This document shows, piece by piece, positions 10,663 to 26,543 of a stretch of 64,000 nucleotides of DNA. This stretch comes from Geomonas oryzisoli (lineage in GTDB: Bacteria; Desulfobacterota; Desulfuromonadia; Geobacterales; Geobacteraceae): positions 2,513,501-2,577,500 of the forward strand of contig NZ_CP076723.1 in the NCBI RefSeq assembly GCF_018986915.1, in the 5' to 3' direction. Position numbers and translations under genes: made by a program. The notes beneath the pieces are model-generated. The model worked only from the letters and a program-made list of their open reading frames with translations. It searched no databases and was not told where the DNA came from. Within the stretch, counting starts at the first letter, position 1. Each line of letters opens with the position of its first letter.

Positions 10663-13600
10663 CTAGACTTCAACCTCGGCCTTACTCTTCTCGAACCAGC
10701 CGTACACCGCGGGAATGATCAACAGGGTCAACAGGGTGGAGGTTATCAGCCCGCCGACCACGACCGTTGCCAGCGGTTTCTGGATTTCGGCGCCGGTCCC
10801 GCCGGCAAAGAGCATCGGCATCAAGCTGAAGATGGCTATGGACGCGGTCATCAAGACCGGGCGCAACCGGTCCACCGCCCCTTTGCGCACGGCCTCCTCG
10901 ACGGAAAGCCCCTCTTCCCGCAACTGCGCGATCCTCGATACCAGCACCAGTCCGTTCAGCACAGCGACGCCGAACAGGACTATGAAGCCGACCGACGCGG
11001 GAACGGACAGGTACTGACCCGACAGGAACAGCGAGAAGATCCCACCAATCAAGGCAAACGGGAGGTTTGAGATCACCAGCAATGCCAGTCGTATCGACCG
11101 GAAGGTGACGTAGAGCAACAGCAGTATCAACGCAACAGCCACCGGACCGATAATCATCAGCTTGTTCATCGCGCGCTGCTGGTTCTCGAACTGTCCGCCC
11201 CAGGTAAGGTAGTACCCGGCGGGGAGCTTGACCTGATCCTTGATCTTCTGCTTCGCCTCGGCGACGAAGCTGCCGATGTCCCTGCCGCTCACGTTCATCT
11301 CGATGCCGATCCTTCTTACCCCGTCCTGGCGGCTGATCTGCACCGGCCCCTCCACCATCTTCACCTCGGCGAGCTGTTCCAGCGGGATGTTCATGCCCGA
11401 CTTGGTCGTGATGAGGAGGTTACGAATCGCCTCGACGGAGTTCCTTTTATCCTCGGGCAGGCGAACCGTGATGTCGAAGCTGCGGTTGGACTCGTAGAAC
11501 GTGGAAGCCGCCTTGCCTGCCACGGCGATCTCGATCACCTGCTGCACGTCGCTTATGTTCAGGCCATAACGGGCGATCTTGGTTCGGTCGATGGCGACGG
11601 TAAGGTAAGGCTGCCCCGAAACCTTCTCCGTATTGAGGTCCGTCCCGCCCCTTACCGTTGAGAGAACCTTGGCGATTTCGGCGGACTTGTCGCGCAGCAC
11701 GTCCAGGTCGTCGCCGAACAGCTTTACTATGAGCTGCGCCCTGGTCCCCGCCACCAGCTCGTCGATGCGGCACTGGATCGGCTGGCTGAAGCCGAAGCTG
11801 ATACCGGGGATCGTTTCCAGCGCCTCCCTCATCTCGTTGGTCAGCTCCTCCTTTGAGATGTCGCGCTTCCACTGCTCCTTGGGCTTGAACACGCCGACGT
11901 AGCCGGTCTTGTCGGGGCCGCGGGTGTCGAGGGCTACGCCGGTCTGCCCGATGCGCCCCACTACCACGTCCAGCTCGTCGAACTTTTTCAGCTTCGCGGT
12001 TGCCTGCTGGTTCACTTCGAGCGCCTTGGCCAGCGAAACACCCGGCAGCATGGCGATGTCCATATCGAAGGAGCCTTCATCCATGATGGGCATGAACTCG
12101 GTGCCGAGCCTGGTCACGAGGAACAGAGAGAAAACGAGCAGCCCACCCGCGATACCGAGCACCACCTTCTTGCGGTTCATGGCGTACTCGAGCAGCGGCA
12201 GGTACTGCTCCTTGGCGTACAGCATGATCCTGCTTTCCTTCTCCGGTTGCGGCTTCAAAACGACGCTGCAGAGCACCGGGATGATGAAGATGGAGAGGAG
12301 TAGCGACGCCAGGAGCGCGATGGCGACGGTGATGGCCAAGGGGCCGAACATCTTCCCTTCGATCCCCTCCAGGGTGAGGATGGGGATAAAGGTGAGCGCG
12401 ATGATCAGTTCGCCGAAGATGCTGGGCTTTCTCACCTCCATCACCGCCTTCAGCACGGTCTTCAGCTTGGGCTGTCCCTCCCCTGCCTCGCTCAGGTGAC
12501 GCTGCACGTTCTCCACCTGGATGATGGTGGTGTCGATGATCATACCGATGGAGATAGCGAGGCCGCCCAGGGACATCAGGTTCGCGGTGATGCCGGTCAG
12601 CTTCATGACGATGAAGGTGGCCAGAAGCGACAGCGGCAACGCCAGGAGTACCACGATGCTGCCGCGGATGCTGTTCAGAAGGAGGTACAGAACCACGAGG
12701 ACGAGGATCGCCCCCTCGATGAGCGCCTTGTTCACCGTGCCGACGCTCGCCTTGACGATGTCGCTTCGGTCGTAGTACGGCACCATCTTGATGCCGTCGG
12801 GAAGCATGTTGCTCTCGTTGATCTCTTTCACCTTGGCGGCGACCCGGGCCACGACGTCGCGGCTGTTCTCACCCCGGAGCATCATCACGATGCCCCCCAC
12901 CGACTCGCCCTTCGCGTCCTTCACCGCCGCCCCCATGCGCACGGCCTCGCCGACTTTCACCTGGGCCAGGTCGCGCAGGTAGACCGGCGTCCCCCCCTGC
13001 GATTTGAGGACGATATTCTCGATGTCGCCGGTGCTCTGGATGAGCCCCACGCCGCGCACGATGTACTGGTCGGTGCCGCGCTCGAGCACGTTGCCGCCGA
13101 CGTTGCTGTTGTTGCTGCCGATGGCATCGTGCACGTCCGCCACCGTGACCCCGTACTTGACCAGCTTGTCCGGGGATACCTCCACCTGGTATTGCTTGAA
13201 GTAGCCGCCGAACGAGTTGATCTCATTGACGCCCGGCACGCTCTTCAGCTGCGGGGTGATCACCCACTCCTGGATGGTGCGCAGGTTGGTGAGGTAGGCG
13301 CGCTGCTCGTCGGGGTTCTGGGACATCTTCCCCTCGAGGGTGTACTGGTAGATCTCCCCCATGGCAGTGCCGATCGGCCCCATGGCCACCTCGACCCCTT
13401 TGGGGACCTTTTCCCGCGCCTCGGCCAGCCGCTCGAAGACGAGCTGGCGGGCGAAATAGATGTCCACGTTGTCCTTGAAGACCACGGTGACGATGGAGAG
13501 GCCGAACTTGGTCACCGAACGGAGCTGTTCGATGTCGGGAAGCCCGCGCATCGCCATCTCGATGGGATAGGTGACGTTCCTCTCGATCTCGACGGCCGAG

Positions 13601-13767
13601 AGCCCGTCTGCGTGGCTCACCACCTCCACCTGGATGTTGGTGACATCGGGGAAAGCGTCGATGGGAAGTTTGAGATACGAATAGAAGCCGAAGACAACGA
13701 TAGCCAGCGCAAGGAAGATGACCATCCCCTTCTGCTTCAGCATGAATGCGACTGTTTTTTCAAGCAT
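10663..13767 (-). CDS. Heavy-metal efflux RND transporter permease (CzcA/CusA family)
   Basis: The 1034-residue protein has the RND layout: TM1 near the N-terminus, a large periplasmic domain, TM2-6, a second periplasmic domain and TM8-12. LPIDAFPDVTNIQVEV near residue 35 and LGTEFMPIMDEGSF are heavy-metal RND signatures. In TM4 the segment reads AISIGMIIDTTIIQVEN, keeping one Asp and the Glu but with Ser where CzcA has its first Asp, so metal specificity cannot be taken from CzcA. It is the last gene of a czcC-B-A type operon and would export cations from periplasm or cytosol across the outer membrane with its partners. Confidence 0.92.
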   Translation of the reverse strand: MLEKTVAFMLKQKGMVIFLALAIVVFGFYSYLKLPIDAFPDVTNIQVEVVSHADGLSAVEIERNVTYPIEMAMRGLPDIEQLRSVTKFGLSIVTVVFKDNVDIYFARQLVFERLAEAREKVPKGVEVAMGPIGTAMGEIYQYTLEGKMSQNPDEQRAYLTNLRTIQEWVITPQLKSVPGVNEINSFGGYFKQYQVEVSPDKLVKYGVTVADVHDAIGSNNSNVGGNVLERGTDQYIVRGVGLIQSTGDIENIVLKSQGGTPVYLRDLAQVKVGEAVRMGAAVKDAKGESVGGIVMMLRGENSRDVVARVAAKVKEINESNMLPDGIKMVPYYDRSDIVKASVGTVNKALIEGAILVLVVLYLLLNSIRGSIVVLLALPLSLLATFIVMKLTGITANLMSLGGLAISIGMIIDTTIIQVENVQRHLSEAGEGQPKLKTVLKAVMEVRKPSIFGELIIALTFIPILTLEGIEGKMFGPLAITVAIALLASLLLSIFIIPVLCSVVLKPQPEKESRIMLYAKEQYLPLLEYAMNRKKVVLGIAGGLLVFSLFLVTRLGTEFMPIMDEGSFDMDIAMLPGVSLAKALEVNQQATAKLKKFDELDVVVGRIGQTGVALDTRGPDKTGYVGVFKPKEQWKRDISKEELTNEMREALETIPGISFGFSQPIQCRIDELVAGTRAQLIVKLFGDDLDVLRDKSAEIAKVLSTVRGGTDLNTEKVSGQPYLTVAIDRTKIARYGLNISDVQQVIEIAVAGKAASTFYESNRSFDITVRLPEDKRNSVEAIRNLLITTKSGMNIPLEQLAEVKMVEGPVQISRQDGVRRIGIEMNVSGRDIGSFVAEAKQKIKDQVKLPAGYYLTWGGQFENQQRAMNKLMIIGPVAVALILLLLYVTFRSIRLALLVISNLPFALIGGIFSLFLSGQYLSVPASVGFIVLFGVAVLNGLVLVSRIAQLREEGLSVEEAVRKGAVDRLRPVLMTASIAIFSLMPMLFAGGTGAEIQKPLATVVVGGLITSTLLTLLIIPAVYGWFEKSKAEVEV

Positions 13768-13781
13768 CGGTGCTGGTCTCC

Positions 13782-15023
13782 TTAGTGATCGTGCCCCTCG
13801 ATTTCGCCCTTCTGCAGCTCCGATTTGAGGACGAAGCCCCCCCTGACCGCCAGCCGCTCACCTTCCCTGATGCCGGAAAGGATCTCGACCATGCCGCCGG
13901 AGGCCCGGCCCGGTTCCACCTGGCGCGGTTCAAAGACACCCTCTTTTTCCGAGACGAAGACGAGCTTCTTCCCTTCCAGCTCCTGGACCGCCTCCTCGGG
14001 CACCGCGATTACCGCCGGGGCGTCTGACGCTGTCGCGAGTTCGACCGTGGCGAACATCTCGGGCTTGAGTTTGCGCCCGGGGTTGGCCACCTCTACCCGC
14101 GCCTTGATGGTTCGGGTCGCGCCGTCGACGACGTCAGCCAGGTAGGTGATCCGGCCGCGGAACTTGGTTTCGGGAAAGGCGTTAACCACGACCGTCGCCG
14201 CCTGTCCGCGGCGTACCTTGACCAGGTCCTTTTCGTGAATATCGACCATCACCCAGACCGAGGAGAGGTCGGCGACCGTGTACAGGCTCTTGGCGGGATC
14301 GGCAAGCTCCCCGACGATAGCGTGTTTCTCAGTGATGACGCCGGAGATGGGAGAGCGCACCGGCAACAGCGGCTTTCGATCCGCCTTTAGGTCGCCGGCG
14401 GAGACGCCGTACAGGGAGAGGCGTTCCTGGTCGGTGTGCATCTCGGTCTGGGCCGTCTTGTAATCGGTCTCAGCCTGGAAGATCTCTTTGCGCGCGGCGA
14501 TCTTCTTGTCCACCAGCGCCTTAACGCGCTCCATGTTGGACTGGGCCAGGGAGAGCCTGGTCTTGGACTGGTGGTAGCGGCTCAGTGCCTCGCCAAGCTC
14601 AACGCTGTCCAGCGTCGCAAGCACCTGACCGGAGCCGACGCTGTCGCCAAGCGAGGCGCGCACGGCGACTATTTTGCCGGAAATACGCGGGGAAACATGG
14701 GCGATGCGGTCGGCGTTGGCCTCGACCTTGCCGGTCGCACTGATGACGCCCGCTAACTGCTGCTTCTTCACGGCGGCCACGGCCACGCCGCTTTGCTTTT
14801 GCACCTCGGCCGTCATCTTGATCAGCTTCGCGCCGTGCTCGTCATGCCCTTCGTGCCCCTTCTCCTCCTTCCCTTCCGCGTGCCCGCCTTTCTCTTCGCC
14901 GTGCCCTGCTTCAGCGTGTTCGGCGTGCTCGCCTCCCGCGGTGGAGTTGACGAGACGATAAGCGACACCGCCGCAGAGGGCAGTGGCGAGGATAAGTCCG
15001 ATGATGATTCCCTTCTTGTTCAC
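13782..15023 (-). CDS. Efflux RND transporter periplasmic adaptor subunit (CzcB/CusB family)
   Basis: The 413-residue membrane fusion protein has an N-terminal signal anchor, then a His/Glu/Gly-rich segment (about residues 30-65, with repeated HAE, GHGEEK and HEGHDEHG pieces) that looks metal-binding, then the lipoyl/barrel-sandwich and beta-barrel domains (VRASLGDSVGSGQVLATLDS and VRSPISGVITEKHAIVGE). It links the inner-membrane pump to the outer-membrane channel. The start is GTG at 15023, overlapping the stop of the TolC-like gene by 3 bases (GTGA). Confidence 0.92.
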   Translation of the reverse strand: MNKKGIIIGLILATALCGGVAYRLVNSTAGGEHAEHAEAGHGEEKGGHAEGKEEKGHEGHDEHGAKLIKMTAEVQKQSGVAVAAVKKQQLAGVISATGKVEANADRIAHVSPRISGKIVAVRASLGDSVGSGQVLATLDSVELGEALSRYHQSKTRLSLAQSNMERVKALVDKKIAARKEIFQAETDYKTAQTEMHTDQERLSLYGVSAGDLKADRKPLLPVRSPISGVITEKHAIVGELADPAKSLYTVADLSSVWVMVDIHEKDLVKVRRGQAATVVVNAFPETKFRGRITYLADVVDGATRTIKARVEVANPGRKLKPEMFATVELATASDAPAVIAVPEEAVQELEGKKLVFVSEKEGVFEPRQVEPGRASGGMVEILSGIREGERLAVRGGFVLKSELQKGEIEGHDH

Positions 15024-16315
15024 TGCGCACCTCCGTTGATGTCAGCGGCAACCGCCGATTCCAGTCTGTTGAAAGCGACCTGTCTCGCATGCAGAGCGGC
15101 CAGGTAGCTGTCGCTCACCTCGAAGTACTTCTTCTGCTCCTCGATCACCGCCAGGATGCCAACCTCCCCGAGCCGGTACGCCTCCTGGGTCAGCTTCAGG
15201 TTTTCATCGAGCTGGCGCAGGATGTCGGAGCGGTACAGGGAGAGTACCTTTTCGGCGTTGGCGAGGCTCGCATGGGCGCTCTCCACCTCGCGCTCGACGC
15301 CGGCGGCGGCGCCCTGGAGGCGGATTCCGGCGCCGCTGCGTTTGGCCCGCGCCTCCTGTTGCCCGGCCTGGTTCCGATCGAATACCGGGATCGGCATGGA
15401 AAACCTCACGCCGATGGTGTAGGAGGTTTCCCTACCTGTGACGCCGCCGATCTCCATGGAGGAGGCATCGCGGCTCAGCGATATCCCGGCGGTGAGGTTG
15501 GGGATCCCTTCCGCCTCGGCGAGTGCGACCTCGGCGTCGCTCTTCTGCATCGCCGCATGCAGCGCCTTGAGGTCGGGACGGTCCTGCATGGCGACCTGCT
15601 TCAACTCCCCCACCCCCTTGATGGCAACGTCCTTACCGTTCAAAGTCCCGCTCAAAACCGGGGACGCTGTCGGCGGGAGGGCCATGAGCGCAAAGAGCTT
15701 GGCACTGTTGTCCAGCACCCCCCGCTGCAACTCGATCAGATTCCCTTCGCTGCGAGTCAACTCGACTCGGACCAGGTACATCTCCAGTTCCGGGATATCC
15801 CCCGCCGCGAGACGGTCCTCGGCCACCTGGAGCAGTTGCTTGTTCAGTTCGATGGAATGGCGCGCAAGGCCGACCCGCTCCCGGGCGAGCAGCACATCGC
15901 AGTAAGCCGCCTGCACCTGCTCCTTGAGAGCGCGCTCGCGGTCAGCTACCAGCCAGCGGTAGGCGGCAAGGTCACGCTCCGCAACCGCGCGGCGCTTGAG
16001 GCGCTTGTCCCCCAGCAGGAACTCCTGGGATATACCCAGCGAGAGGTTACTGTCGTCGCTGCTGCCGGTAAGCGCACCGGTGGCAGCTTCCACGTCCAGC
16101 GTAGGATTGGGAATAACCCCGGCCCGCACAGCGGCGGCGTCGAGGATGCCGGTTTCTTTGCGTAAGGAGACGAGCTCCGGGTTGTTTTGGAGCGCCGCGT
16201 CCACGGCCTGCTGCAGCGAAATGTGCTGCGGCTCGGCAAGTGCGGGTACGGCTGCCAATAGAGACAAGGCGACGGCCACGGCTAGGCGCGCGCCCCTGAA
16301 GGCGTTTGTTGCCAA
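15020..16315 (-). CDS. TolC family outer-membrane efflux protein (CzcC/CusC-like)
   Basis: The 431-residue protein has a signal peptide ending ALAEP, then two repeats of the outer-membrane efflux protein fold with long helices (NNPELVSLRKE and, in the second half, DRPDLKALHAAM). It forms the outer-membrane exit of the RND pump. The start is a TTG at 16315 supported by AGGAGG six bases upstream, with no better ATG nearby. It is the first structural gene of the pump operon. Confidence 0.9.
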   Translation of the reverse strand: MATNAFRGARLAVAVALSLLAAVPALAEPQHISLQQAVDAALQNNPELVSLRKETGILDAAAVRAGVIPNPTLDVEAATGALTGSSDDSNLSLGISQEFLLGDKRLKRRAVAERDLAAYRWLVADRERALKEQVQAAYCDVLLARERVGLARHSIELNKQLLQVAEDRLAAGDIPELEMYLVRVELTRSEGNLIELQRGVLDNSAKLFALMALPPTASPVLSGTLNGKDVAIKGVGELKQVAMQDRPDLKALHAAMQKSDAEVALAEAEGIPNLTAGISLSRDASSMEIGGVTGRETSYTIGVRFSMPIPVFDRNQAGQQEARAKRSGAGIRLQGAAAGVEREVESAHASLANAEKVLSLYRSDILRQLDENLKLTQEAYRLGEVGILAVIEEQKKYFEVSDSYLAALHARQVAFNRLESAVAADINGGAQ

Positions 16316-16429
16316 GAAAAACCTCCTGGATGCAATGTTGGAAAGGCGGAGAAAACAGGGCAGACCACGGCACGTTACGCCGGGAGCATGGGCTCCTGCG
16401 CAGGACGTACTACGGCCGTAAAGGGGGTG

Positions 16430-16795
16430 TTAGGCGCGTAACTGCGGGGGAACGAACTTGGAGAGAAAAACTTCGGGTATGAAGGTGAAGCGGTCGAAGC
16501 TCTGGAGTGAGGCGAAAACAGGATTGTATGCGAGAGAGAAATGACCGACGCTCAGCGAGACATGGCAAGCGCAGTCACAGCAGAAGTCGCAGTCGTCATG
16601 ACCGGCGTCCCCCTGCAAGGGGCAGTCGGGGGTGTCGCAGCCCCGGTCGGCGTGGGAATCGACCTGAACGCAGTCAGCGACAGTACCGCAGCGCTCAAAG
16701 GCGTGCGCGTTGTCACATGCTCCACCAACAAAGGTGCAGAAGATCACTGCGAGCAGCAGGAAAGAGAAAAATTTGACGGGGAATAACTTACGCAT
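16430..16795 (-). CDS. Small secreted Cys/His-rich protein preceding the metal-efflux operon
   Basis: The 121-residue protein from the ATG at 16795 has a signal peptide (FFSFLLLAVIFCTFVGGA) and a mature part with about eleven Cys and several His (for example CDFCCDCACHVSLSVGH), ending in a Pro-containing tail (FIPEVFLSKFVPPQLRA). Small proteins of this design, such as CzcI, often precede czc/cus operons, so periplasmic metal binding or sensing is likely. A longer version from a TTG at 16834 is possible but that codon lies in the predicted promoter. The gap to the TolC-like gene is 114 bases. Confidence 0.65.
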   Translation of the reverse strand: MRKLFPVKFFSFLLLAVIFCTFVGGACDNAHAFERCGTVADCVQVDSHADRGCDTPDCPLQGDAGHDDCDFCCDCACHVSLSVGHFSLAYNPVFASLQSFDRFTFIPEVFLSKFVPPQLRA

Positions 16796-16804
16796 GCACC
16801 GGCG

Positions 16805-16834
16805 AACATAACGAATGAGCACAGAAAGTGTCAA
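16805..16834 (-). promoter_or_regulatory. Candidate promoter of the metal-efflux operon
   Basis: On the minus strand TTGACA (16829-16834), an 18-base spacer and TATGTT (16805-16810). Transcription would begin only 2-4 bases before the ATG at 16795, implying a nearly leaderless message or a later start codon. Confidence 0.45.
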
Positions 16835-16851: not shown

Positions 16852-17604
16852 CTATTCGCCCCTTATTTCAGTATCAAGGTGTGGCTCATGCAGTTTGACC
16901 GGTTTGCCGCGCCGCATCCGCAGGTTGAGCATCTCCACCATCACCGAGAAAGCCATGGCGAAATAGATGTATCCCTTGGGAATGTGCATCCCGAAGCCCT
17001 CACCGATGAGGGAGACACCGATCAGCAGCAGGAAGCTCAGGGCCAGCATCTTGATGGTGGGATGCCTTTCCACGAACGCACTGATCTTGCCGGAGAAGAG
17101 CATCATGAATCCGACGGCGATGACCACGGCGGCAACCATGATGAAGAGCTGGTTGGCCATCCCGATCGCGGTGATGATGGAGTCGAGCGAGAAAACGATA
17201 TCCAGCAGCAGGATCTGCACGATGACCGCGCCGAAGGTAGCACCGACCTTCGCCGCATGCACCACCTCCTCCCCTTCCAGCTTCTCGTGGATCTCCATGG
17301 TGCTCTTCCAAAGCAGGAACAGGCCGCCCGAGATGAGGATCAGATCGCGGCCGGAGATCTCGTTGCCCAGCACGCTGAAGAGAGGCGTGGTGAGCCCCAT
17401 GAGCCAGGCGAGCGAGAACAGGAGCGCGACGCGGATGAACATCGCCAGTCCCAGGCCGGTCAGCCTCGCCCTCTCCTGCTGGGCGGCGGGCAGTTTGCTC
17501 GCCTGGATAGAGATGAAGATGATGTTGTCGATGCCTAGCACGATTTCCAGCGCGCTCAAAGTAACCAGGGCCATCCAGACCTGCGGGTCAGTAAGCCAGT
17601 CCAT
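16852..17604 (-). CDS. terC: TerC family integral membrane protein
   Basis: The 250-residue protein has the TerC/YgdQ pattern: about seven to eight helices, LEIVLGIDNIIFI near residue 20 and the paired LLDIVFSLDSIITAIGM near 130, whose acidic residues are thought to bind or move metal ions. TerC-like proteins such as Alx and MeeF/MeeY export manganese. The gene follows htpX on the same strand and a manganese-type riboswitch precedes htpX, so manganese export is the favoured role. The ribosome site GGAGAA precedes the ATG. Confidence 0.9.
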   Translation of the reverse strand: MDWLTDPQVWMALVTLSALEIVLGIDNIIFISIQASKLPAAQQERARLTGLGLAMFIRVALLFSLAWLMGLTTPLFSVLGNEISGRDLILISGGLFLLWKSTMEIHEKLEGEEVVHAAKVGATFGAVIVQILLLDIVFSLDSIITAIGMANQLFIMVAAVVIAVGFMMLFSGKISAFVERHPTIKMLALSFLLLIGVSLIGEGFGMHIPKGYIYFAMAFSVMVEMLNLRMRRGKPVKLHEPHLDTEIRGE

Positions 17605-17654: not shown

Positions 17655-17741
17655 GTCCCCTCCCCCGGAGGGGGAGGGACAGGGAGGGGGAAAATGCCGG
17701 CTATTCCCCCCTCCCAGCCTCCCCCCCTCCGGGGGGAGGAG
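17655..17741. repeat. GC-rich inverted repeat, family A, copy 4
   Basis: CCCTCCCCCGGAGGGGGAGG and CCTCCCCCCCTCCGGGGGGA blocks flank a core of about 25 bases, in the gap between terC and htpX. Confidence 0.8.
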
Positions 17742-17769: not shown

Positions 17770-18630
17770 TCAGCGCCGTACCGCCATCTGCTCCAGCCGC
17801 GCGATGCGCTCTTCCATAGGCGGATGCGTGGAAAACAGCTGCATGACCCCTCCGCCGGTCAAGGGGTTCACGATGAACATATGCGCCGTGGCAGGCCGTG
17901 CTTCCTGCATCGGGAGCGCTTGCGAACCCATGTGCAGCTTCCTCAGCGCCGAGGCAAGCGCCAGCGGGCGACCGCAGATCTCGGCGCCGGTGGCGTCGGC
18001 CAGGTACTCGCGGGAGCGGGAAACCGCCATCTGGATCAGCATCGCAGCGATGGGCGCGATGATTGCCATAGCCAGCGAACCGACCAGACCGCCGATGCCG
18101 CCTCCCTCCTCGTCGTCGCTGCGCCCGCCGCCGAGGATGGCGCCCCACTGCAGCATGTTGCCGATCATGGAAATGGCGCCGGCGAAGGTGGCGGCGATGG
18201 TGCCCACCAGGATGTCGCGGTTTTGCACGTGGGCCAGTTCGTGCGCCATCACCCCTTCCAGTTCCTCCGGGGACAGTATGCGCAGGATCCCTTCCGTCGC
18301 GGCAACCGCTGCGTGTTCCGGGTTGCGACCAGTGGCGAACGCGTTGGGGCTGTCGGAGGGGATGATGTAGACCTTGGGCATGGGGAGCCCGGCCCGGGCC
18401 GCGAGGTTGCCCACCAGGTTGTAGAACATGGGGTGGTCTTGCGGCCCGATCTCCTGGGCGCCGTACATGCTGAGCACGATCTTGTCCGAGAACCAGTAGG
18501 AGAAGAAGTTCATGCCCAGGGCGAGGACGAAGGCCATCATCATACCGGAGCGGCCGCCGAGGGCCTGCCCCATGGTCACCATGAGCACGGTGAGAAGAGC
18601 TAACAGGAACGTGGTTTTCAGTCTTTGCAT
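17770..18630 (-). CDS. htpX: Zinc metalloprotease HtpX (M48 family)
   Basis: The 286-residue membrane protease has two N-terminal helices, the zinc-binding HELAH motif (in [13 protein letters not shown]), two more hydrophobic helices and the distal [17 protein letters not shown] motif with the third zinc ligand Glu. HtpX degrades damaged inner-membrane proteins. The start at 18630 ([10 protein letters not shown]) has AGAGGT upstream; an extended frame to 18711 would run through the riboswitch terminator and is rejected. It heads a likely two-gene unit with terC under a manganese-type riboswitch, which is unusual for this protease. Confidence 0.92.
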
Positions 18631-18685
18631 AACATTTACCTCTACGAGTGTTGTGTCCCGAAGGACTTGTTTCGGGCCGAGGGTA

Positions 18686-18732
18686 AATAAAAAGACCTTT
18701 ACCCTCGGCACATAGTTACCAGGATAAAGGTC
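18686..18732 (-). terminator. Riboswitch-controlled terminator (expression platform)
   Basis: On the minus strand GACCTTTATCC (18722-18732) pairs with GGGTAAAGGTC (18694-18704), 11 bp with one wobble, and TTTTTATTT follows at once: an intrinsic terminator. The left half is also the 3' side of the aptamer P1 helix, and the right half can instead pair in a second perfect 12 bp stem (GCCGAGGGTAAA with TTTACCCTCGGC, 18676-18709). The three structures exclude one another, as expected for a switch that is ON when ligand holds P1. Confidence 0.75.
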
Positions 18733-18828
18733 TTGTTGACAGGTTAACTGTCCCGGCTCCGGGTCTTGCGACCGTATTGACGAAGTCCGGGTCGGCCTTT
18801 TCTGTAGCCGATAACTACTCCCCTTTAA
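18722..18828 (-). ncRNA. yybP-ykoY (manganese) riboswitch aptamer upstream of htpX-terC
   Basis: The minus strand begins TTAAAGGGGAGTAG (18815-18828), has CGTCAATACG in the middle (18773-18782) and ends CAACAAGACCTTTATCC (18722-18738). The GGGGAGUAG loop, GUCANNNUACG element and CAAGACCUUU 3' end are the signatures of the yybP-ykoY family, which binds Mn2+ between its two loops. P1 forms from UAAAGG and CCUUUA. Transcription predicted from the upstream promoter starts within 1-3 bases of the aptamer. Downstream lies htpX and then terC, a classic target of this riboswitch class. Confidence 0.85.
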
Positions 18829-18836
18829 CGATTCGA

Positions 18837-18865
18837 AATATAATTTCTCCTATCAGAGTTGTCAA
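18837..18865 (-). promoter_or_regulatory. Strong sigma-70 promoter of the riboswitch-htpX-terC transcript
   Basis: On the minus strand TTGACA (18860-18865), a 17-base spacer and TATATT (18837-18842). The start point near 18830 is where the riboswitch begins. Confidence 0.8.
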
Positions 18866-19094: not shown

Positions 19095-20288
19095 TTAGTC
19101 CATCTTGACGGGTACTTTTGCCTTGAGGACGAACTTGCCGTCCTTGACAACCAGCAGGGACAGCGGGCTCTTGATCGGCTCGCGGTTAGCCTGCATGCTG
19201 ATGGTGCCGGAAACGCCTTCGAACTTCTTGGTCTGTGCCAGAGCGGTTTTGAAGACTTTCGGGTCAACGCTGTTAGCGCGCTTCATGGAGTCGGCCAGCA
19301 GCATCACAGCGTCGTAGCCCTGGGCGTCGAACAGGCCCGGGAGCTCGCCGTTGTGCTTGGCTTTGAACGCCTCGATGAACTTGGCGGTAGCAGGAGCTGC
19401 CTGCTCGGTGGAGAAGCCAAGAGCGGACATGGAGCCCTCGACTGCCGGACCGCCCAGCTCGATGAATTTCGGGGAGAACAGGCCGTCGCCGCCGAACATC
19501 GGAGCCTTCAGACCCTGTTTGCGGGCCTCTTTCATGATGAGAGCGCCTTCGGTGTAGTAACCGGAGAACAGGATGACGTCCGGCTTCTTGCTCTTGATGT
19601 TGGTGATCTGGGCGGAGAAGTCCTTGTCGCCGTCTTTGACTTTCTCATCAGCAACGATCTTGATGGACGGAACCTTGGCGGCTGCGTCGCGGAAGGTCTG
19701 GGACAGACCGACGGAGTAGTCGTTGTTGTCGGAGGTCACGATGGCGACTTTCTTGAAGCCGAGGTCTTTGGCGAAGTACTCGATGCAGGCCGGGATGGCG
19801 ATGGAGTCGAGCAGGGTGTCGCGGAAGATGAAGTCGCCTACTTCGACGACGCCCGGGCCGGTTGCGCCTGCGGAGAGGAGCACAACGCCGGCTTTCTGAG
19901 CGATCGGAGCGGCAACCTTGGTGATGCCGGTGGTCGGGTCGCCAACGATGGCGGTGACGTTGTCACGGGAGATGAACTTCTGGGTAACGGAAGCACCTTC
20001 CTGCTTGTCGCCGCGGTTGTCGGCTTCGACGATCTCGATCTTCTTGCCCTGCACGCCGCCGGCTGCGTTGATCTCGTCGGCAGCCATCTTCATGCCTTCG
20101 AGGGTCGGCTTGCCGAACATGGCCACGTCGCCGGTGAGGGCGCCGAGGAAGCCGATTTTGATGGTGTCGCCGGCGGGTTTCGCCGCCTCGGCGCCAGGGG
20201 CCGGGGCCTCTTCTTTCTTCTTGCAGCCGAATGCACCGACTGCGAGCATTGCTACGAGCAGCAGCGCGCTGATCTTCTTAAAGCTCAT
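19095..20288 (-). CDS. livK: Branched-chain amino acid ABC transporter substrate-binding lipoprotein LivK
   Basis: The 397-residue protein begins with a lipoprotein signal (ALLLVAMLAVGAFGCKKKEE, lipobox AFGC), then the type I periplasmic binding fold of Leu/Ile/Val-binding proteins (IKIGFLGALTGDVAMFG). It captures branched-chain amino acids for LivHMGF, whose genes are 9 kb away on the same strand. It has its own strong promoter and terminator, so it is a single-gene unit, allowing more binding protein than permease. Ribosome site AGGAGG precedes the ATG. Confidence 0.92.
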   Translation of the reverse strand: MSFKKISALLLVAMLAVGAFGCKKKEEAPAPGAEAAKPAGDTIKIGFLGALTGDVAMFGKPTLEGMKMAADEINAAGGVQGKKIEIVEADNRGDKQEGASVTQKFISRDNVTAIVGDPTTGITKVAAPIAQKAGVVLLSAGATGPGVVEVGDFIFRDTLLDSIAIPACIEYFAKDLGFKKVAIVTSDNNDYSVGLSQTFRDAAAKVPSIKIVADEKVKDGDKDFSAQITNIKSKKPDVILFSGYYTEGALIMKEARKQGLKAPMFGGDGLFSPKFIELGGPAVEGSMSALGFSTEQAAPATAKFIEAFKAKHNGELPGLFDAQGYDAVMLLADSMKRANSVDPKVFKTALAQTKKFEGVSGTISMQANREPIKSPLSLLVVKDGKFVLKAKVPVKMD

Positions 20289-25490: not shown

Positions 25491-26543
25491 ATGATAAACA
25501 CAGGACACCACAGCGAGCTCAAGCACCATTTCGCCAGCGACAACTACGCAGGGATCTGCGCAGAGGCGTGGCAGGCGATGGCGGAGGCTAACAGCGGGCT
25601 GGCGAGTTCCTACGGCGACGACCGCTGGACAGCCCTGGCGTGTGAGAAGATCCGCGAGCTTTTCGAGACGGATTGCGAGGTTTTCTTCGTCTTCAACGGT
25701 ACTGCGGCAAACTCGCTGGCGCTGGCATCGTTGTGCCAGTCCTATCACTCCATCGTCTGCCACGAAATGGCGCACATAGAGACAGACGAGTGCGGCGCCT
25801 CCGAATTCTTTTCCAACGGTACCAAGGTGCTTCTGGTCCCCGGTGAGAACGGCAAGATCAACCTCGACGCCGTCGAGCACACCATCACCAAACGCAGCGA
25901 TATCCACTATCCCAAGGCGCGCGCCCTGAGCATCACCCAGGCGACGGAGCTCGGCACGCTGTACTCAGTATCGGAACTGCAGGCGATCGGGGAACTGGCG
26001 AAACGGTTCGACTTGCGCGTGCATATGGACGGCGCGCGTTTCGCCAATGCGGTCGCGGCCCTGAACGTCGCGCCCAAGGAGATCAGTTGGCAGGCCGGCG
26101 TCGACGTCCTCACGTTCGGCGGGACCAAGAACGGGTTTGCTGTCGGTGAAGCCGTGGTGTTCTTCAACAAGGAGTTGGCCTACGAGTTCGACTACCGCTG
26201 CAAGCAAGCCGGCCAGTTGGCCTCCAAGATGCGCTTTCTTACCGCACCCTGGATTGGAATGCTGGAGAGCGGCGCCTGGCTCAGGAACGCCGCGCACGCG
26301 AACAGCTGCGCACGTCTGTTGGCAAACGAGATCAAGAAGATACCGCAGGTCCGCATCATGTTCGAAAGCCAGGCCAACTCCGTCTTCCTGGAAATGGCAC
26401 CCGAAGCGCTGGAAGATTTAAGGGCTCGCGGCTGGCACTTCTACACCTTCATCGGCTCGGGCGGCGCCCGCTTCATGTGCTCCTGGGACACCAAGGTCGA
26501 GGAGGTCGCCAACCTGGTGGCCGACATCAAGGCAGTCGTGTAG
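25491..26543 (+). CDS. ltaE: Low-specificity L-threonine aldolase
   Basis: The 350-residue PLP enzyme cleaves threonine and allo-threonine to glycine and acetaldehyde. It has the family's DNYAGICAEA start, FVFNGTAANSLAL cofactor-phosphate region, HMDGARFANA with the Asp that holds the PLP ring, and TFGGTKNGFAVGEAVV with the Schiff-base Lys. The ATG at 25491 follows AGGGGA; the longer open frame upstream overlaps the EamA gene and is rejected. A terminator follows at 26603. Confidence 0.92.
   Translation: MINTGHHSELKHHFASDNYAGICAEAWQAMAEANSGLASSYGDDRWTALACEKIRELFETDCEVFFVFNGTAANSLALASLCQSYHSIVCHEMAHIETDECGASEFFSNGTKVLLVPGENGKINLDAVEHTITKRSDIHYPKARALSITQATELGTLYSVSELQAIGELAKRFDLRVHMDGARFANAVAALNVAPKEISWQAGVDVLTFGGTKNGFAVGEAVVFFNKELAYEFDYRCKQAGQLASKMRFLTAPWIGMLESGAWLRNAAHANSCARLLANEIKKIPQVRIMFESQANSVFLEMAPEALEDLRARGWHFYTFIGSGGARFMCSWDTKVEEVANLVADIKAVV

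Follow-up and report, generated by a model that had tools for sequence, protein, structure and literature searches.

The minus-strand leader in front of htpX in Geomonas oryzisoli raises two questions: whether it acts as a manganese riboswitch with a mutually exclusive terminator, as a preliminary description of the sequence had proposed, and why a membrane protease should be the first gene behind such a switch. The window analyzed here is the whole 64,000-nucleotide stretch of DNA. Within it, the minus-strand leader is flanked by a substrate-binding-protein gene (end at 19095) and htpX, and the yybP-ykoY (Mn2+) riboswitch region extends from 18835 to 18664. The locus is made up as follows.

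18837..18865, minus strand: sigma-70-type promoter TTGACA-N17-TATATT, 11 of 12 consensus matches
17770..18630, minus strand: htpX, zinc metalloprotease HtpX (M48), 286 amino acids, HELAH motif; NF002826 409.9 bits (cut-off 369)
16852..17604, minus strand: terC, TerC-family membrane protein, 250 amino acids; PF03741 158.9 bits (cut-off 27.8)

The promoter is as nearly perfect as previously described, and the structured leader begins within ~10 bases of it. All 37 related leaders that were inspected for a promoter, out of 77 collected in all, have a TTGACA hexamer on their 5′ side. The protease combines the Peptidase_M48 domain and the HExxH motif with a score above the HtpX equivalog cut-off. 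For the TerC protein of the window, none of the three riboswitch-linked NCBIfam subfamilies reached its own cut-off. On the 3′ side of terC (10663-16834, minus strand) follow a gene for a small cysteine/histidine-rich protein and then TolC-, CusB-, and CusA/CzcA-type metal efflux genes; this set has its own promoter-like site at 16834.

Identity of the leader RNA

A default Rfam scan of the window at the gathering score reported nothing. Below this cut-off, RF00080 matched the leader on the minus strand over the whole model with 26.0 bits (E 1.6e-5; gathering score 45), and it ranked first among the RF00080 matches of the whole genome (4.85 Mb; E 6.1e-5). The covariance-model check proposed earlier thus came out negative at the curated cut-off and positive below it. 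Only 2 of 14 control genomes, and none of 20 loci with window-type or related switches, gave an RF00080 match above the cut-off, so the miss in the default scan reflects the cut-off more than the RNA of the window. At the gathering score, 20 of 66 switch-less htpX loci also gave no match, which is uninformative because the same threshold misses all 20 switch-bearing loci. These results suggest that Rfam's present cut-off hides this branch of Mn riboswitches from routine annotation; the gathering score of 45 bits may need review. Two of the three switch copies of the genome ranked at the top of the whole-genome search, and the third was absent from the 10 matches of RF00080 in the genome.

The three conserved yybP-ykoY blocks named in the preliminary description (GGGGAGTAG, CGTCAATACGG, and CAAGACCTTTA) are all present on the minus strand. 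The full leader folded with a z score of -3.93 (1 of 200 shuffles as good) and the aptamer by itself with -2.61 (2 of 200). The identity of the RNA was decided by comparison with related leaders, which a DNA search located in 42 of the 48 genomes of the family. A pattern search of 98 fetched loci yielded 77 distinct leaders, and 76 of them, after one with an insertion had been dropped, formed the alignment A1. As the collecting pattern demanded the L1, L3 (CGTCA), and P1.1 motifs, their invariance is partly a product of selection, which did not extend to the other helices. A covariance model, R1, was built from 41 leaders, which match it by construction. The structure consists of these elements.

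18725..18829, minus strand: Mn2+ (yybP-ykoY) aptamer, four-way junction (P1.1, P1.2, P2, P3, P4), from RF00080, covariation, and R1
18822..18827, minus strand: 5′ strand UAAAGG of the P1.1 switch helix, pairing with 18730-18725; 99.6% of cells paired

In A1, 92.8% of the cells of the four-way junction were paired, and double-sided changes occurred in 21 of 32 pairs. Cells with double changes numbered 239, compared to a shuffled mean of 79.2 and with none of 500 shuffles as high; for the weakest of five covariation measures (further pair types), 29 of 500 shuffles were as high. When the structures were slid by 1 to 3 columns, pairing dropped to 23 to 54% (maximum, 54.2%). The weakest helix was P4 (71.1% paired). 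P1.1 is nearly invariant: one member shows a compensatory exchange of G-C for A-U, and two lack the terminal pair. The aptamer of the window, which belongs to the training set of R1, scored 113.9 bits with this model, and R1 found 97 sites in 41 of the 48 family genomes. Presence in 41 of 48 genomes together with base-pair covariation rules out chance. At the level of comparative sequence analysis, the leader is therefore confirmed as a yybP-ykoY (Mn2+) riboswitch, a member of a known riboswitch family, in agreement with the earlier assignment.

Terminator and predicted switching

The expression platform comprises a stem-loop and a U-tract.

18694..18732, minus strand: intrinsic terminator stem-loop GACCUUUAUCC...GGGUAAAGGUC, 5′ arm containing the P1.1 3′ strand; 99.4% of cells paired
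18685..18693, minus strand: terminator U-tract UUUUUAUUU, read from the sequence; four Ts invariant in A1

The proposal that the 3′ strand of P1 could alternatively form a terminator before a U-tract was borne out: GACCTTTATCC (18732-18722) pairs over its full length, including one U-G pair, with GGGTAAAGGTC (18704-18694), after which TTTTTATTT follows. The P1.1 3′ strand (18730-18725) sits inside GACCUUUAUCC, and GGGUAAAGGUC precedes UUUUUAUUU, meaning that one strand is common to aptamer and expression platform. The terminator pairing of 99.4% of cells in the 76 leaders was equaled by 81 of 500 shuffles, the sequence being too conserved to covary. As P1.1 hardly varies and the terminator shows no covariation above shuffles, both rest on complementarity and conservation. 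Unconstrained RNAalifold predictions for the full leaders chose the terminator together with P2 and P3, and not P1.1 or P4. This is as expected for the competing folds of a switch but is not proof of the ON fold.

In the Lactococcus lactis riboswitch, as described in PMC11087558, P1.1 and the terminator compete for one strand, and Mn2+ stabilizes P1.1 and allows readthrough. The same competition in the window predicts an ON switch; the earlier proposal of transcription with Mn2+ bound is thus supported by the geometry of a known Mn-induced switch, with the direction taken over by homology. Altogether, the leader is very probably a transcriptional ON riboswitch for Mn2+ in front of an htpX-terC operon. 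In the proposed mechanism, RNA polymerase would start a few bases before P1.1 and make the aptamer first. Binding of Mn2+ between L1 and L3 would lock helix P1.1 (UAAAGG/CCUUUA), whose 3′ strand could then not pair with GGGUAAAGGUC, and transcription would proceed into htpX and then terC. Without Mn2+, GACCUUUAUCC would pair with GGGUAAAGGUC, and the polymerase would stop at the U-tract. At a high cytosolic Mn2+ level, the operon would provide a membrane protease and a TerC-family Mn exporter or metallochaperone.

With the L. lactis yoaB type (RF00080) the window switch shares the four-way junction, L1 (GGGGAGUAG), L3 (UCAAU), CAAGACC, and a P1.1 3′ strand that also forms part of an intrinsic terminator, as well as the ON logic that is predicted here. 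It differs by its score below the Rfam gathering score, by P1.1 and terminator sequences that are almost frozen across the family, and by a first gene that is usually htpX. The alx and mntP Mn riboswitches of Escherichia coli belong to the same aptamer family and have a TerC/Alx-type target, as does the second operon of this genome described below, which holds an Alx. They act, as far as described, on translation or with Rho, whereas the window switch has an intrinsic terminator.

Genes behind the switch

Mn riboswitches are known for exporters, and the preliminary description had regarded a membrane protease as first gene as unusual. In this family it is not: 58 of the 97 R1 switches, in 37 genomes, directly precede htpX, making a membrane protease the commonest gene directly behind the Mn switch in 48 genomes of one family. 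Among 90 distinct family leaders, 56 have htpX, which is the first recognized gene in all 56 when matches to the short queries for ribbon-helix-helix and zinc-ribbon proteins are disregarded. TerC or Alx is also found downstream in 45 of these 56, with one tandem switch pair counted twice. The proposed targets are supported, with htpX first, terC second, and the order recurrent in the family. The other 34 leaders are followed by genes for Tim44-domain proteins with a ribbon-helix-helix protein, TerC/Alx, UPF0182, or a P-type ATPase, except for two without a recognized gene. Switches of the window type stand in front of the Mn exporter families TerC/Alx, GDT1 (PF01169), and P-type ATPases.

Among the 80 HtpX copies found at an E value of 1e-60 or better in the 48 family genomes, the switch lies directly upstream of all 14 copies with at least 90% identity and of 44 of the 46 copies with 72 to 89%. 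Using a 72% line that was drawn post hoc, this corresponds to 58 of 60 copies above and 0 of 20 below; the two copies above 72% that lack the switch occur in genomes G038 and G027.

The genome of the window contains only two TerC genes, and each is located behind a switch-linked htpX, giving two switch-htpX-TerC operons. In the second operon, the TerC-family member is Alx according to NCBIfam and starts 12 bp 3′ of its htpX. The third switch copy of this genome (L039, G000:C1:1339610-1339716, minus strand) is followed by genes for a ribbon-helix-helix protein and a Tim44/TimA-like membrane protein (PF01402, PF04280), an order present behind 16 of the 90 distinct family leaders. A DNA-binding protein first behind a Mn switch would represent a second regulatory layer. 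One relative (L042, G041:C82:24746-24851 and 25727-25832) has two tandem Mn riboswitches, ~980 bases apart, before one htpX-DedA-GDT1 set.

Outside the family the pairing recurs. R1 sites were present in 30 of 395 genomes drawn from the phylum, 3 of the 30 belonging to the family itself. Of the 35 leaders from other families, 14 are followed by htpX, and further ones by P-type ATPases, Alx, TerC, or GDT1. Of the best 80 HtpX loci in GTDB contigs, some of which end at contig ends, 14 have a switch at an E value of 0.01 or better, in all 14 cases upstream of htpX and on its strand; they come from Geomonas, Geobacter, Geobacteraceae, Desulfuromonadaceae, Geopsychrobacter, and less specific bins.

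Relationship of HtpX to TerC

At its simplest, the Mn-switched htpX-terC operon means that a membrane protease is made together with an exporter at high Mn2+. A Mn-induced module for export and quality control is a plausible interpretation of this arrangement. HtpX is a broadly conserved quality-control protease, and there is a real possibility that it serves here as a general envelope-stress protease which has no specific dealing with TerC or Mn2+ and whose pairing with the switch was inherited. A tree of 110 HtpX proteins speaks in part for this explanation: 40 of the 44 switch-linked proteins fall into one supported clade of 42 rows, which also holds one switch-less and one unknown row, so that one ancient event explains most cases. 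The four remaining switch-linked rows are found in two separate places (L160 in one; L161, L162, and L167 in the other) and are most simply separate gains, which argues against inheritance as the whole explanation. The switch label requires at least four changes on the tree, whereas shuffled labels average ~34, and the simplest account is that the switch was gained three times and lost once; on starred branches alone, three changes are unavoidable, and losses could in principle be among them. The tree comes from a quick search and has several long branches, and a switch counts as absent where R1 did not find one. On inspection, the leaders outside the main clade possess L1, an L3-like loop, P1.1, and their own terminator; in L161 and L162, L3 deviates with GCCA instead of GUCA.

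Two further observations do not fit a general protease well. Among the best 80 GTDB loci, nearby TerC-family genes on the same strand accompany 9 of the 14 switch-linked HtpX genes but only 3 of the 66 others, a comparison that ignores kinship. In addition, the TerC protein MeeF of Bacillus subtilis brings down HtpX and FtsH in co-immunoprecipitation (He et al. 2023, PMC10550928); a limit of this support is that the pull-down table lists HtpX with MeeF only. According to the same report, the B. subtilis TerC proteins MeeF and MeeY function in metalation of exported enzymes, and FtsH becomes essential when both are absent. The MeeF/MeeY-secretosome (FtsH, HtpX, PrsA) described there resembles the situation in the window in that a TerC protein is found with HtpX/FtsH and that meeY is under a Mn riboswitch. 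It differs in that the protease is associated at the protein level, whereas in the window protease and TerC protein are encoded in one Mn-switched operon. A membrane protease is also directed against Mn excess in the case of the B. subtilis rhomboid protease YqgP, which with FtsH protects the cells from Mn by cleaving MgtE (PMC7231995); YqgP belongs to another protease family, senses Mn by its own domain, and is not known to have a riboswitch.

From the gene context and the one published pull-down we infer that HtpX may work alongside TerC at the membrane, where it would clear or process membrane proteins that Mn2+ export or metalation has disturbed. The more specific idea that HtpX is specialized as a partner of TerC-type Mn exporters, in a Mn-riboswitch-induced module for co-translocational metalation and quality control whose pairing was gained several times, is tentative, and we consider it rather doubtful. 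If it is true, TerC would move Mn2+ into the envelope at high Mn2+, and HtpX would remove or process jammed, mis-metalated, or unwanted membrane proteins, e.g., metal importers. Reduction of Mn(IV) oxides exposes Geobacter relatives to high Mn2+, and the module may matter most where metal-oxide respiration could flood the cell's own envelope with Mn2+.

The recurrent operon, in which TerC or Alx is often included, provides genetic support for a published finding that had stood alone, namely that HtpX co-purifies with a TerC protein. As the pairing of switch and htpX recurs in many Geobacter-related bacteria, a link between Mn export and membrane-protein quality control becomes testable, and the question of why TerC proteins need membrane proteases becomes approachable by genetics in culturable environmental bacteria. 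In a search of the open-access literature we found no earlier link of htpX to a Mn riboswitch, and He et al. 2023 was the sole paper among the matches listed with both yybP-ykoY and htpX; the two reports in which the ligand was identified (Dambach 2015; Price 2015) lie outside that scope. A 2013 regulon survey left out the Geobacter lineage, and its main text does not contain htpX (PMC3766115).

Probable co-transcription of htpX and terC

The riboswitch might control htpX only, with terC being expressed separately. The 165-bp gap between the two genes, with a GC-rich repeat in it, and gaps of 160 to 320 bp in several relatives would be compatible with this arrangement. Nevertheless, it is unlikely, as a simple scan of the gap listed no promoter-like or terminator-like site, with a terminator search so insensitive that it also missed the switch's own terminator, the loop of which exceeds the limit of the scan. 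Moreover, the gap is only 53 to 54 bp in two relatives of the same genus and 12 bp in front of alx in the second operon, and other genomes place the same switch before terC or alx without htpX. The GC-rich inverted-repeat stretch (17657-17741) may be an inserted repeat, given the shorter gap in the two relatives. Co-transcription of htpX and terC across the 165-bp gap is thus the favored, though unproven, reading of this sequence.

The third stem

The preliminary description had also mentioned a third stem, which exists.

18676..18709, minus strand: alternative post-readthrough stem GCCGAGGGUAAA/UUUACCCUCGGC; 73.6% of cells paired

It is formed by the terminator 3′ arm GCCGAGGGTAAA (18709-18698) and TTTACCCTCGGC (18687-18676), and its pairing is not above that of shuffles (119 of 500 as high; 33 of 500 for the best of five measures). 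The stem could serve a dual control, in which the strand 18687-18676 would hide the Shine-Dalgarno sequence in the OFF fold and, in the ON fold, be sequestered itself by the 3′ arm of the terminator. This strand can indeed pair with the Shine-Dalgarno sequence. Duplex energies with shuffles and swaps were calculated for 72 of the 77 leaders: several leaders of other genomes reach duplex energies between about -18 and -23 kcal/mol, matched by 0 to 0.5% of shuffles, but many do no better than shuffles, and the duplex of the window has only -11.0 kcal/mol, with 11% of shuffles as strong. A leader's own strand pairs barely better than a swapped one (-11.25 versus -10.04). Constrained ON/OFF folding, with five P1.1 pairs enforced, covered 72 of the 90 family leaders. 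In 8 of 52 htpX leaders, the predicted accessibility of the Shine-Dalgarno sequence in the ON fold exceeded that in the OFF fold by more than 0.2 (largest in L040, L193, L036, and L094), whereas the mean ON-OFF difference over the 52 was -0.01 (shuffled strand, -0.08), strong reversals occurred (e.g., L187 at -0.83), and in the window the sequence is buried in both folds (unpaired, 0.25 ON and 0.18 OFF). By both duplex energies and constrained folds, dual control of transcription and translation by Shine-Dalgarno sequestration was therefore unsupported in the window and on average, and we regard it as quite unlikely.

Predicted ligand site and peripheral hairpin

The ligand site of the predicted transcriptional ON switch was compared with that of the L. 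lactis riboswitch.

18774..18780, minus strand: L3 loop UCAAUAC, with A18778 as equivalent of the Mn2+-contacting A41/A48, by alignment to L. lactis UCA41AU43UC

In L. lactis, N7 of the L3 adenosine A41 touches Mn2+, and further residues named for the ligand site are A10 and neighboring Gs of L1 and the 3′ GA (PMC6754395). The window carries these residues in L1 (GGGGA), L3 (UCA), and the 3′ GACC; the collecting pattern had in part demanded their conservation in L1 (G, G, A10; 3′ GA) and at the L3 adenosine. No leader in A1 departs from the Mn-contact adenosine, although the pattern asked for CGTCA, and all 76 retain the C-G pair at the base of L3. Homology points to Mn2+ as the ligand. That the yybP-ykoY-like scaffold has drifted to another divalent metal, which would also explain the RF00080 score of 26 versus 45 and would suit the failure of all 20 related-switch loci at the cut-off and the neighboring CusA/CzcA-type efflux set, is highly improbable in view of the retained L1 and L3 residues and L3-foot pair, the Mn exporter families among the targets, the switches found by the same model before P-type ATPases and GDT1 in distant phylum members, and the failure of RF00080 to pass its own cut-off in most control genomes.

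Insertions were observed in the P3.2 hairpin of two leaders, L098 (G030:C38:116311-116465) and L093 (G029:C1:1968380), with ends that look by eye like inverted repeats. In L098, the aptamer sequence resumes past the insertion, and the peripheral P3.2 hairpin seems to tolerate insertions.
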